The notes below the pieces were generated by a model, which made no database searches, was not told the DNA's origin, and saw only the letters and a program-made list of their open reading frames with translations. The translations under genes and the position numbers were made by a program. DNA of 64,000 bases from Alphaproteobacteria bacterium (GTDB lineage: Bacteria; Pseudomonadota; Alphaproteobacteria; Micavibrionales; Micavibrionaceae). Shown here one piece after another: positions 24,502-30,277 of the stretch. The first letter of the stretch is position 1, and each line of letters starts with the position of its first letter. The stretch covers positions 1,178,320 through 1,242,319 of the forward strand of contig JAFLCW010000001.1 in assembly GCA_017302165.1 (NCBI GenBank), read 5' to 3'.

Positions 24502-27105
24502 ATGATGATGTTTCGTACCGACCAGCCTGTTGCCCTTCGCCGGCTTGATTATGCGCCCCCTACTCATCTTATTCCATCCTTATCGATGACGATCGAACTG
24601 CATCCCACGGAAACGCGGGTCACAAATACGATGCAGGTGATTCAAAACAGGCCATCGTCCACACTTTTCTTAAACGGTGAGAAGCAGACATTAATCTCCG
24701 TACTATTAGATGGCGCGCCTGCGCTTTATCAAACCTCTGAAGAGGGTATTGAAATTGAGACTGGCGGCAAGACATCTTTTGAACTTCGTATTACCAGCCT
24801 GTGTAACCCGCAAGACAATACAGCCAACAAAGGTCTGTATATGTCCGATGGATTTTTTTGTACGCAGTGCGAGGCCGAAGGCTTTCGCCGGATTACCTAT
24901 TTTCTGGATCGTCCCGATATCTTGAGCCGTTACACGGTTAGATTAGAAGGTGATCAATCCGAACATCCTGTTTTATTGTCGAATGGGGACATTCCTGTGG
25001 ACACCGGCACCTTGCCGGGGCATCGCCATTATGCAGTATATCAGGATAATACGCCCAAGCCCTGTTACCTCTTTGCAATAACAGCCGGAAAAATCAGTTA
25101 TCTGGAAGATACATTTATCACGCGTTCGGGTAAGAATGTGCGCCTTCGGATTTATGTCGATGAGGTCGGCAAGATAAAACGTTGTGGCTGGGCGATGGAT
25201 TCCTTGATCCGTTCTATGAAATGGGACGAAGAAAAATGGGGGCGGGAATATCAATTTGACCGATTTGATATTGTCGCGGTCAGTAAATTCAATATGGGGG
25301 CGATGGAAAACACATCGCTTAACATCTTTAACGATGCCTTGATTTTAGGCGATGACGAGACAGCTACGGATTCCCAGCTTGAATCGATCGAAGGTGTTGT
25401 GGCGCATGAATATTTTCACAATTGGACAGGAAATCGCGTCACCTGCCGGGATTGGTTTCAACTGACGTTAAAAGAGGGGCTGACTGTTTTCCGGGATCAG
25501 GAATTTTCAGCCAACATGAATTCGCGGGGCATACAACGCATTGATGACGTAACACAACTTCGGGCGCGGCAATTCCCGGAAGATTCAAGCCCTCTGTCCC
25601 ATCCTATACGTCCAGACAGCGTCGTAGAGATTAATAATTTTTATACCGCTACCGTGTATGAAAAAGGGTCTGAGATCATCCGCATGACCCGTCTACTCGC
25701 CGAGGCTCGTCAGCCGGGCGGATTCCACAAAGGCACCGATATTTATTTTGATCGCCATGACGGACAAGCGGTGACCTGTGATGAATGGATTAAGGCGATT
25801 GCCGATGGATCAGGTGCTGATTTCACCCAGTTTATGCGTTGGTACGCGCAAGCCGGAACCCCCGAAGTCACGGCAGAATTTGCGTATGACGCGGCCGCCC
25901 AAAAAGCCAGCCTGACATTATCCCAGCACACGAACCCCACACCGGACGGAAGTCCCAAGGAACCGTTTCATATTCCTGTCGCGATTGGACTGGTTGCGCC
26001 AGACGGTCAAGATATGATCGGCACGCAGATCATTCATTTAACGGCACCCGTTCAGACATTCGCATTTGACAACATTCCCGTGCGCCCTGTGCCATCGATC
26101 TTAAGACAATTTTCCGCCCCCGTAAAATTGAAGGCCAATCAAACAAATGATGATCTTCGTTTTTTGATGGTGCATGACACGGATGATTTTAACAGATGGG
26201 ATTCTGGCCAGACATATATGCTCCGTATGTTGGAGGATATGATGGATCGTCAAATGAATTCTGTCCCTTCGGAGTTGATCGAGACACTGGGTCACCTTGT
26301 ACTAAAGTCTCACAATCAAGAGAGTGATCCGGCCTTTATGGCACGCATGTTATCGCTCCCCGATATATCAATCATTGGACAATCTCGGGATGTTGTAGAT
26401 CCGGATGAAATTTACCGTATCCGAAAAATGGTGATAGATTCGGTTACTCATAAATATCGAGATCAAATGCTGATTTCATATAAAAATCTATCCCATTCTG
26501 ATATATCAGGGACATCCGGCAGAGCGAAGGGTGTTCGGGCGCTTCGGAATGTCTTGCTTAGATATCTCGATGATCCTGCGTTGGCCGGCCTGCATTTCGA
26601 TCAGGCAAAAAATTTGACGGATCGTATCGGTGCGTTATCTGTTTTAATACATCACGACCATGCGGAAACACAGCGCGTTTTAGGTGCTTTTGAAGATAGA
26701 TATCTTCATACACCGCTTGTGATGGATAACTGGTTCCGTGTTCAGGCGGGGAGTACGCGACAAGATACCCTATCAACCCTGCAAGCCTTATTAGCACGAC
26801 CAGACTTTGATTGGACGACACCTAACCGCGTGCGGGCGGTGTTTGGGGCGTTTGGCATGAATGCCGTGATGTTCCACCACCGTAGTGGCCAAGGATACGC
26901 ATTTGTTAAAGATGCGATTGTAAAATTAAATACGATCAACCCAGAAATTGCGGCACAAATTTTAAGACCGTTCCGGGAATATAAACGTTACACGCCGGAT
27001 CGTCAGGCGTTTATGAAGTCGGCATTGATGGAAATAGCACAAACCCCCAACCTGTCACGGGATGTCTATGAAATTGTCCAAAAGACGCTTGGCGCCGAGA
27101 GATAA
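24502..27105 (+). CDS. pepN: Aminopeptidase N (M1 family)
   Basis: Cytoplasmic zinc aminopeptidase, 867 aa, the usual length of bacterial PepN. The substrate motif is G-A-M-E-N, and the zinc site is H-E-Y-F-H-N-W with the downstream Glu in L-K-E-G-L-T. The C-terminal DUF3458 helical half is complete. Three ATGs occur in tandem at 24502-24510; a GGAG lies just upstream. The end overlaps rnhB by about 40 nt. Confidence 0.96.
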   Translation: MMMFRTDQPVALRRLDYAPPTHLIPSLSMTIELHPTETRVTNTMQVIQNRPSSTLFLNGEKQTLISVLLDGAPALYQTSEEGIEIETGGKTSFELRITSLCNPQDNTANKGLYMSDGFFCTQCEAEGFRRITYFLDRPDILSRYTVRLEGDQSEHPVLLSNGDIPVDTGTLPGHRHYAVYQDNTPKPCYLFAITAGKISYLEDTFITRSGKNVRLRIYVDEVGKIKRCGWAMDSLIRSMKWDEEKWGREYQFDRFDIVAVSKFNMGAMENTSLNIFNDALILGDDETATDSQLESIEGVVAHEYFHNWTGNRVTCRDWFQLTLKEGLTVFRDQEFSANMNSRGIQRIDDVTQLRARQFPEDSSPLSHPIRPDSVVEINNFYTATVYEKGSEIIRMTRLLAEARQPGGFHKGTDIYFDRHDGQAVTCDEWIKAIADGSGADFTQFMRWYAQAGTPEVTAEFAYDAAAQKASLTLSQHTNPTPDGSPKEPFHIPVAIGLVAPDGQDMIGTQIIHLTAPVQTFAFDNIPVRPVPSILRQFSAPVKLKANQTNDDLRFLMVHDTDDFNRWDSGQTYMLRMLEDMMDRQMNSVPSELIETLGHLVLKSHNQESDPAFMARMLSLPDISIIGQSRDVVDPDEIYRIRKMVIDSVTHKYRDQMLISYKNLSHSDISGTSGRAKGVRALRNVLLRYLDDPALAGLHFDQAKNLTDRIGALSVLIHHDHAETQRVLGAFEDRYLHTPLVMDNWFRVQAGSTRQDTLSTLQALLARPDFDWTTPNRVRAVFGAFGMNAVMFHHRSGQGYAFVKDAIVKLNTINPEIAAQILRPFREYKRYTPDRQAFMKSALMEIAQTPNLSRDVYEIVQKTLGAER

Positions 27106-27733
27106 TCCTCTCGATTCTTCCTGCTCTCTGCGGGATTTTGATCAGGGGTTTGATCTTCCGGTATGTGGCATGGATGAAGTCGGCCGAGGGCCACTGGCTG
27201 GCCCCGTGGTGGCGGCCTGCGTATTCATCCCTCCTGAAAATTTGACTGATCCGATCTGGAATCATGTCAACGACAGCAAGAAATTATCATCCACTGCGCG
27301 TGAAAAATTGGATCCGGATATACGTGCACTCTGTTTTTTTGAAATCATCGACATATCGCCTGCTGAAATTGACCGGATTAATATCCATCAAGCCTCGTTA
27401 GAAGCCATGCGCCGCGCCTATCACAACATCGCGGATCGTCTCCCACCCCACCATGCCCTTGTAGATGGAAAATTCACACCCGCCCTGCCCTGTCCGGCGC
27501 AAGCGGTCGTCAAAGGTGACATGCGCTCGCTCGCGATTGCGGCAGCGTCCATTTTGGCCAAGGTTCATCGAGACCGTCTGATGACCCGGCTTCATGATGT
27601 TTTCCCCGTCTATGACTGGGATAAAAATGCAGGCTATGGGACGCCTGCACATCTGCGCGCGATTAAAACGCATGGGCTGACGCCACATCACCGTCTGTCC
27701 TTTGCCCCGTGTGCTGAGGCCTTAAGTCTCTGA
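27062..27733 (+). CDS. rnhB: Ribonuclease HII
   Basis: Removes ribonucleotides from DNA-RNA hybrids. 223 aa. G-M-D-E-V-G-R-G-P-L-A-G-P near residue 36 carries the catalytic Asp-Glu pair; D-S-K-K-L and V-D-G-K follow, and A-A-S-I-L-A-K-V-x-R-D is intact. The start may be ATG 27062 or 27068, both inside the pepN end, so translation is coupled. Lies immediately upstream of the ccrM promoter. Confidence 0.94.
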   Translation: MSMKLSKRRLAPRDNPLDSSCSLRDFDQGFDLPVCGMDEVGRGPLAGPVVAACVFIPPENLTDPIWNHVNDSKKLSSTAREKLDPDIRALCFFEIIDISPAEIDRINIHQASLEAMRRAYHNIADRLPPHHALVDGKFTPALPCPAQAVVKGDMRSLAIAAASILAKVHRDRLMTRLHDVFPVYDWDKNAGYGTPAHLRAIKTHGLTPHHRLSFAPCAEALSL

Positions 27734-27736
27734 TCT

Positions 27737-27831
27737 GACTCTGAAATCTAAAGAAACTCTGACAACGCATTGATTCTAAATATGGAATCAAATTTATATC
27801 TTGACGTGGACTCGCGCATGATTCATGATTC
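27737..27831 (+). promoter_or_regulatory. ccrM promoter region with six GANTC sites
   Basis: GANTC occurs at 27737, 27772, 27785, 27809, 27820 and 27827. A candidate sigma-70 promoter is TTGACG (27801-27806), a 17-base spacer, and CATGAT (27824-27829), so one site falls in the spacer, one touches the -10 edge and one overlaps the -10. Chance expectation for a GANTC in 95 bases is about 0.4. As ccrM makes the methylase for this motif, methylation-state autoregulation is the natural reading; it is inferred. Confidence 0.7.
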
Positions 27832-27855
27832 GACCGTAGAAAAACGGAGATTTAA

Positions 27856-28989
<1,134 letters not shown>

Positions 28990-29376
28990 TTGACGATCAT
29001 TCTTAATAACTTGGCTATGAATACGACCCATCAGATTTTTTTAAAGGAAATTGTCTTGAATGCCTCTGTGGGCGTCAATCCTGAGGAAAAAAACAATCGT
29101 CAGAACGTTATTGTTTCTGTCACAGTCGATGTAAAAACGCCAGAAAAGCCGATAGAGGACACGATTGAGCATGTCCTGTCCTATGACGATATTTTAAAAG
29201 ATGTCGAACGGATCGTTTTATCTGGGCATACGCATCTTTTGGAAATCTTGGCCGAACGTATTAAAGATAGTGTGCTTTGTTACCCACAGGCGGCAGGTGT
29301 GACGGTTATTGTTGAGAAACCGGACATTTACGAACATGTGAAGACTGCAGGCGTTAAACTGACGTGTTCCAGATAA
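28990..29376 (+). CDS. folB: Dihydroneopterin aldolase family protein
   Basis: Folate pathway enzyme making 6-hydroxymethyl-dihydropterin. About 119-128 aa. Family signs are G-V-N-P-E-E-K, the S-Y-D-D-I stretch and H-L-L-E-I-L-A-E-R-I, with a late V-E-K-P. The start is uncertain: TTG 28990 abuts the ccrM stop, while ATG 29017 fits the family N-terminus better. Neither has a good ribosome-binding site. Could also be the related FolX epimerase. Confidence 0.85.
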   Translation: MTIILNNLAMNTTHQIFLKEIVLNASVGVNPEEKNNRQNVIVSVTVDVKTPEKPIEDTIEHVLSYDDILKDVERIVLSGHTHLLEILAERIKDSVLCYPQAAGVTVIVEKPDIYEHVKTAGVKLTCSR

Positions 29377-29377
29377 T

Positions 29378-30277
29378 TTATCTAGGTTTTGAAGTGATCA
29401 GATCTTCAGGTTTTGACGATGAGAGTAACAGCACAGAATTGGCATCTTCAAACAAATCTATTCCATCTAATTTTCCTTCAAGAATAGCCAGGATACTTCC
29501 GTTTCGTCCCCGAATACTTCCCAGATATTCATGAAAATCAACCCGAAGGCGGACATAGGCAATACGTTTATATCTTTGCTGACGGACATCGATATCCACA
29601 TCAAGGACTTCTTTTTGTTTGCGCACCAAAAAGGCCTGCGCGACATGTTCATCGACGGGGACAAAATTATACGTGAAGGCTTGCTCCATGATGAGCATCA
29701 GATTTCGGGGGTAATCCTTGACCTCGCCGATACGTCCGCATAATTCACGATCGAGTGAATTTCCCCAGATTTCAAACCGCCGAATATTATTATACGCATA
29801 GACATCCATGATCGGGAATCCCTTGCGTACCTCGTCATATGTACCGAGCTCTACGGGGAGCACGAATTCAAATTTTGTTGGAAAGGATTCGTGGTTGATG
29901 TTCAGAAATTTTTTGGCGGATTCTCGAATTTTTTTCCATTCGAAGTCATTATTGACATTGTTTTGATATATGTCGCATTCATTAATCAACATAAAATTAT
30001 CAACGGCGCGATCATCGCCGCTATCAAAAACACCTAAGTTCCAATAGAGTTTCGAGAGATTTGCTGGCGTCCCCCGAACATACCCCGTTAATTTCGTTGA
30101 GTCAGGCGCGACCGTGGCATCACCCGTTTTAACATCACGGGCAATAGATTCAGATGTCACCATAGGCGTTTGTGGAAATTCAGAAGGTGTTTGCGCCAAC
30201 GCCGGGGTTATATCCACGCCTACCCACACGCATATCACAAAAACAAAAGGCCGGATGAACATCTTTATCATATTCAT
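29378..30277 (-). CDS. Exported hypothetical protein, about 300 aa
   Basis: A signal peptide is clear (hydrophobic stretch, then P-A-L-A-Q), so the mature protein is periplasmic. Distinctive segments are L-I-N-E-C-D-I-Y, a F-E-W-K-K-I pattern and L-C-G-R-I-G. It may belong to one of the alphaproteobacterial domains of unknown function such as DUF4852, but I cannot confirm this. No catalytic pattern is evident. I start at ATG 30277 rather than an upstream GTG. Convergent with folB, with one base between the stops. Confidence 0.7.
   Translation of the reverse strand: MNMIKMFIRPFVFVICVWVGVDITPALAQTPSEFPQTPMVTSESIARDVKTGDATVAPDSTKLTGYVRGTPANLSKLYWNLGVFDSGDDRAVDNFMLINECDIYQNNVNNDFEWKKIRESAKKFLNINHESFPTKFEFVLPVELGTYDEVRKGFPIMDVYAYNNIRRFEIWGNSLDRELCGRIGEVKDYPRNLMLIMEQAFTYNFVPVDEHVAQAFLVRKQKEVLDVDIDVRQQRYKRIAYVRLRVDFHEYLGSIRGRNGSILAILEGKLDGIDLFEDANSVLLLSSSKPEDLITSKPR

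Follow-up and report, generated by a model that had tools for sequence, protein, structure and literature searches.

The ccrM gene of this Micavibrionaceae bacterium, which encodes the GANTC adenine methyltransferase, is preceded by six GANTC sites, three of which lie in or touch the core of its predicted promoter, and the core arrangement recurs in front of ccrM in relatives across the Micavibrionales. Judged from the sequences, the fixed positions across the order, the near-uniqueness of the arrangement in each genome and the free middle base of two of the sites strongly support a selected, methylation-related promoter element at ccrM. We propose that ccrM has a sigma-70 promoter whose core would consist partly of CcrM sites and which would be gated by hemimethylation, giving a pulse after fork passage that shuts itself off. 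We put the probability of this reading at somewhat above one half (about 0.55).

The ccrM locus and its GANTC cluster

The window, by which we mean the whole 64-kb stretch of DNA that was analysed, belongs to an assembly of 2.0 Mb in 5 contigs. The ccrM product resembles CcrM of PDB entry 6pbd over its full length (E=3.5e-158) and has a DPPY motif and a C-terminal RAMA domain (PF01555 and PF18755). We based the orthologue call on this full-length similarity to a solved CcrM and not on NCBIfam NF050803, a model built, judging by its name, on Caulobacter-type CcrM, against which the product scored 611.8 bits, under the equivalog cut-off of 830. The closest named CcrM loci were from Micavibrio MAGs. 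A search for known RNA families in 27000-29500 found none, and no intrinsic terminator was found in 27650-27900, so that read-through from the upstream gene rnhB is possible. Elsewhere in the same genome, a ParB-type domain and an N6/N4 methyltransferase occur together in single ORFs (G000 C1:49978-51183 and C2:90117-91235), which suggests ParB-methylase fusions.

Table 1. Features of the rnhB-ccrM region (positions in the window; a dot marks sites given without a strand).
Feature	Position	Strand	Basis
rnhB (ribonuclease HII), upstream neighbour	27062-27733	+	NCBIfam NF000595, 228.8 bits (cut-off 167); PF01351
rnhB-ccrM intergenic region with six GANTC	27734-27858	+	
Upstream site U1 (GACTC)	27737-27741	.	
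Upstream site U2 (GATTC), 13 bp before U3	27772-27776	.	
Upstream site U3 (GAATC)	27785-27789	.	
Predicted -35 element TTGACG	27801-27806	+	promoter scan; aligned in relatives (TTGAC is the alignment anchor)
Core site 1 (GACTC), within the -35/-10 spacer	27809-27813	.	
Core site 2 (GATTC), starting 11 bp downstream of the start of site 1 and sharing its final base with the beginning of the -10	27820-27824	.	
Predicted -10 element CATGAT	27824-27829	+	promoter scan; straddles core sites 2 and 3
Core site 3 (GATTC), covers the last three -10 bases	27827-27831	.	
Predicted transcription start	27836 (about 27835-27837)	+	inferred from the -10 position
Shine-Dalgarno-like GGAG	27846-27849	+	sequence
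ccrM orthologue, 376 aa, GANTC adenine methyltransferase	27859-28989	+	PDB 6pbd, PF01555, PF18755

The gap between rnhB and ccrM measures 125 bp, and the six sites reported there by the first-pass annotation are at exactly the coordinates it gave (Table 1). GANTC is rarer in the window than expected (163 per 64 kb versus a shuffle mean of 278), and the cluster upstream of ccrM is the densest in the window, any other 95-bp stretch holding three sites at most. None of 200 Markov simulations reached six GANTC in 95 bp, despite a higher total number of sites. Comparison with the other intergenic regions of the genome had been proposed as a check, and across 464 kb of this genome the density was 2.17 per kb overall and 2.65 per kb in sampled intergenic DNA, far under the 48 per kb of the rnhB-ccrM gap. 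The Poisson probability of such a cluster is 1.4e-6 per 125-bp region, and we estimate that the genome has about 535 intergenic regions of at least 60 bp. A pattern search of the whole genome for three sites with short gaps returned 29 GANTC triples, versus 14 for the reversed motif CTNAG, and a run of five closely spaced GANTC sites occurred at the ccrM locus only. The second densest intergenic cluster in the sampled DNA, with five sites in 147 bp (G000:C1:581025-581171, equivalent to L228:11025-11171), sits between two minus-strand ORFs, one of which resembles a pilus chaperone by our own reading of its sequence.

A cluster that arose by chance or from base composition, with no regulatory meaning, is barely credible. 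Intergenic DNA of alphaproteobacteria is generally enriched in GANTC (PMC3973325), and the enrichment in the sampled DNA of this genome is mild (2.65 versus 2.13 per kb); against a chance origin stand the Poisson estimate, the constant positions of the sites in dozens of diverged relatives and the once-per-genome signature at ccrM described below. We rejected chance clustering because the Markov simulations, the genome-wide search for runs and the intergenic density all spoke against it.

Anatomy and conservation of the predicted core promoter

The sole sigma-70-like promoter found upstream of ccrM has a spacer of 17 bp. Sigma-70-like matches are frequent by chance (mean of 0.5 per shuffle), and hence conservation carries the weight for the ccrM promoter. 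The first-pass annotation had put one GANTC in the spacer, one at the edge of the -10 and one over the -10 hexamer, and this placement held for sites 1, 2 and 3, respectively (Table 1). The -10 thus lies between and across two methylation sites, in the form GANT[CATGAT]TC. The context of site 3, TGATTCG, fits the extended GcrA motif YGAKTCG, and within the ccrM promoter of this window site 3 is the only one with the exact context.

We aligned 48 distinct promoters of relatives, anchored on the TTGAC of the -35; all counts from this alignment ignore shared ancestry. Eight further Micavibrionales upstream regions, some of them incomplete, did not align to the scheme. A GANTC stood in the same place as site 1 in 41 of the 48 promoters, as site 2 in 41 and as site 3 in 34, against 3% each for other positions, and CATGAT was present at the -10 offset in 37. 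The resulting Micavibrionales consensus reads TTGAC-N3-GANTC-N6-GANTC-AT-GATTC. Site 3 was absent or shifted in 14 of the 48 relatives and is therefore not strictly required. At least two upstream GANTC sites were found in 34 of the 48, with equivalents of U2 at -87/-88 and of U3 at -74/-75 in many relatives and a site near U1, at -121 to -125 from the ATG, in a number of them. An arrangement without conservation in relatives would have counted against the first-pass annotation, and the alignment of orthologous promoters turned out in its favour. In L025 and L211 (family f5, Micavibrionales) we observed a variant ccrM promoter, TTGACGGATTC, in which the second core site is missing and a GANTC adjoins the -35 without a gap.

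Pairwise identity among the 48 promoters was 0.68-0.73 within the sites and 0.30-0.37 outside promoter elements, with 0.36-0.37 between the sites and about 0.3 in the upstream or downstream flanks. At sites 1 and 2, the information content is 0.27-0.29 bits for the middle base and 0.9-1.2 bits for the surrounding G, A, T and C. With the middle base nearly free, as would be expected if selection maintained a site that CcrM can methylate, the methylatable motif itself is the conserved unit. Site 3 always has a T in the middle because this base is also the last one of the -10. The low identity between the sites bears on a further explanation, in which a different protein would bind over the GANTC sites and keep CcrM away from them, a methylation-blocked switch of the MucR kind. 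MucR does shield some GANTC sites in Caulobacter and Sinorhizobium (PMC5172544), but such a protein would need conserved sequence between the sites, where identity is just 0.36-0.37, and we consider this explanation very improbable.

The signature TTGAC-N3-GANTC-N6-GANTC was present in exactly one copy in 37 of 58 related genomes, and in 36 of these, all but G019, it lay just upstream of ccrM; a reversed-pattern control had no matches in the 58 genomes. Across the class, 58 of 385 genomes contained the signature, compared with three matches of the control pattern, and in 23 of 26 newly fetched loci the signature preceded ccrM by 33-186 bp in the same orientation. Among named loci, grouped by their record titles, a relaxed two-site core was present in five of seven from Azospirillum/Niveispirillum and six of ten from Sphingomonadales, and in none of the 16 Hyphomicrobiales and four Caulobacterales loci examined.

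Proposed methylation gating, GcrA and chromosomal position

With parB taken as a marker of the origin region and position expressed as the fraction of the parB-terminus half-chromosome, ccrM lies at 0.95 in this genome and at 0.95, 0.88, 0.81 and 0.99 in four others, near the terminus in all five; the value of 0.99, for G023, rests on a rounded genome size. The GC skew changes sign near ccrM in three of the four genomes checked (this one, G022 and G024); in G051 the change is some 0.15-0.3 Mb away. In Caulobacterales and Rhizobiales, ccrM is reported to lie midway between origin and terminus (PMC8116508).

In the reading we prefer, the sites would be methylated in this organism; GANTC methylation was seen in another Micavibrionaceae population (PMC9296519). 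Sites 1 and 2 lie one helical turn apart, site 1 in the spacer, and sites 2 and 3 extend over opposite ends of the predicted -10. In the fully methylated state, m6A in and beside the -10, together with GcrA, would keep the promoter low. The fork passing the terminus-proximal ccrM would leave the sites hemimethylated and the promoter would then fire, with GcrA probably acting at sites of the YGAKTCG type. Newly made CcrM would remethylate the genome and its own promoter and so shut ccrM off. The conservation of the arrangement, at fixed spacing in the order and more loosely beyond it, suggests that ccrM reads its own methylation state and in this way senses a just-copied chromosome. The sign that we infer, on when hemimethylated and off when fully methylated, has precedents in Caulobacter, where ctrA P1, with a GANTC at about -29, is active when hemimethylated (PMC4287350, PMC8116508) and ccrM is described as being transcribed from the hemimethylated chromosome only (PMC2217572), and in the six-GANTC gcrA promoter of Agrobacterium, which CcrM represses even in E. 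coli (PMC11514494). These precedents and the location of ccrM at 0.81-0.99 of the way from origin to terminus lend indirect support to the tie to fork passage that the first-pass annotation had suggested. A point against gating is that hemimethylation is short-lived at the terminus, and this would limit the pulse of CcrM.

GcrA is encoded in 56 of the 58 related genomes, and the GcrA of this genome has the DNA-binding and sigma-interacting domains of the Caulobacter protein (PDB 7ye1, 5yiu, 5yix). Of the 116 core sites, 41 carried YGAKTCG, the motif of GcrA activation in Caulobacter (PMC7987155), compared with two of the 101 sites further upstream (Fisher P=6e-11, ancestry ignored); the core contained one or more copies in 33 of 48 relatives. 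GcrA prefers fully methylated DNA (PMC3667746) and helps open complexes to form at methylated promoters (PMC7403470), so that methylation could activate ccrM instead. In this positive autoregulation, methylated core sites would recruit GcrA and RNA polymerase, and timing would come from the level of GcrA or proteolysis of CcrM. We regard it as rather unlikely and at the same time as a serious rival to hemimethylation gating. It would account for the enrichment of YGAKTCG in the core and the near-universal presence of GcrA, and in Caulobacter a GANTC in the spacer marks promoters active at 40-60 min (PMC4287350). Such a loop would have difficulty in leaving the unmethylated state and has no shut-off, and in the closest precedents, those for ccrM and for a gcrA promoter rich in GANTC, full methylation goes with lower activity (PMC2217572, PMC11514494). 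Beside full-length GcrA, several of the genomes contain ORFs of 61-74 aa whose match to the GcrA profile is confined to its C-terminal, sigma-interacting part (G007 C13:42480-42644, G009 C19:32778-32945, G021 C61:20127-20285 and G035 C5:19419-19577), possibly GcrA competitors or gene remnants.

GcrA might also be irrelevant, m6A in or next to the -10 altering sigma-70 binding or melting directly. Sites 2 and 3 do overlap the -10, and CcrM lowers the activity of the Agrobacterium gcrA promoter in E. coli, which is free of GcrA (PMC11514494); since a direct effect would explain neither why core sites are rich in the GcrA-type context nor why site 1 lies in the spacer, away from the -10, we think it improbable.

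CtrA is encoded in this genome (71% identity to the Caulobacter CtrA query), and neither a CtrA box (TTAA-N7-TTAA) nor a DnaA box was found in the rnhB-ccrM intergenic region. TTAA-N6-8-TTAA was present in two of 56 Micavibrionales regions upstream of ccrM. In loci from outside the Micavibrionales, a CtrA box and the GANTC core occurred together in two of 66 (Fisher P=0.005, with a loose CtrA pattern and relatedness ignored), a suggestive sign that the two rarely co-occur. In this genome, CtrA-like boxes precede ctrA, and the 200 bp upstream of it lack GANTC. In a set of eight 200-bp regions upstream of ctrA (L189-L196, among them L192), CtrA-like TTAA boxes were seen and five of the eight had no GANTC.

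Many alphaproteobacteria have no CtrA sites before ccrM, and control by methylation was left undecided (Brilli et al. 2010, PMC2877005). For these bacteria, the conserved core of two or three GANTC sites is a concrete candidate for ccrM control, and together with the terminus-proximal locus it makes fork-passage timing of methylase synthesis directly testable. More tentatively, the Micavibrionales ccrM, and its counterparts with the two-site core in Azospirillum and Sphingomonadales, may be a self-contained, terminus-proximal sensor of completed replication, with even the -10 assembled from CcrM sites, that gives one CcrM pulse per cycle without CtrA, perhaps an older wiring that CtrA replaced in Hyphomicrobiales and Caulobacterales.

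Comparison with known methylation-sensitive promoters

Methylation-sensitive promoters of the GcrA/CcrM system are already known. Our searches of the openly readable literature at hand turned up no methylase promoter with a core made partly of its own sites and conserved throughout an order, and priority is unproven. The ccrM promoter described here drives an orthologue of the methylase driven by the Caulobacter crescentus ccrM promoter. Unlike that CtrA-dependent promoter, it has no TTAA-N7-TTAA and carries six GANTC sites, of which three lie inside the core or touch it; of the features of CtrA-activated promoters of the Caulobacter/Brucella type, CtrA itself is encoded and the CtrA box is absent. 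The parallel with the Caulobacter ccrM promoter drawn in the first-pass annotation is thus incomplete, since ccrM there is activated by CtrA.

The ctrA P1 promoter of Caulobacter likewise has a GANTC beside the -35, at about -28/-29, and is active in the hemimethylated state (PMC4287350); GcrA protects it from -35 to +7 when it is fully methylated (PMC3667746). P1 has a single site and belongs to ctrA, whereas the methylation sites here are on ccrM, and methylation control seems to sit on ccrM rather than on ctrA. The gcrA promoter PG of Agrobacterium tumefaciens also has six GANTC sites, there in 250 bp. Methylation by CcrM lowers its activity, and firing upon hemimethylation has been proposed (PMC11514494). 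Unlike the ccrM promoter, PG controls gcrA, and sites built into the -35/-10 spacing are not described for PG in the part of the source available to us.

The ccrM promoter shares with the GcrA-dependent methylated sigma-70 promoters of mipZ, podJ and other genes a GANTC in the spacer or near the -10 and the YGAKTCG context (PMC7987155). Of the features of the GcrA/CcrM type, it has GANTC in or next to the predicted -35/-10 promoter, YGAKTCG at a core site and GcrA encoded in the genome. In Caulobacter, 96 cell-cycle start sites are preceded by GANTC within 50 bp, and just 11 of these have more than one (PMC4287350). Unlike Caulobacter promoters of the GcrA type, the promoter described here combines three GANTC sites in the core with three upstream, on the methylase's own gene.
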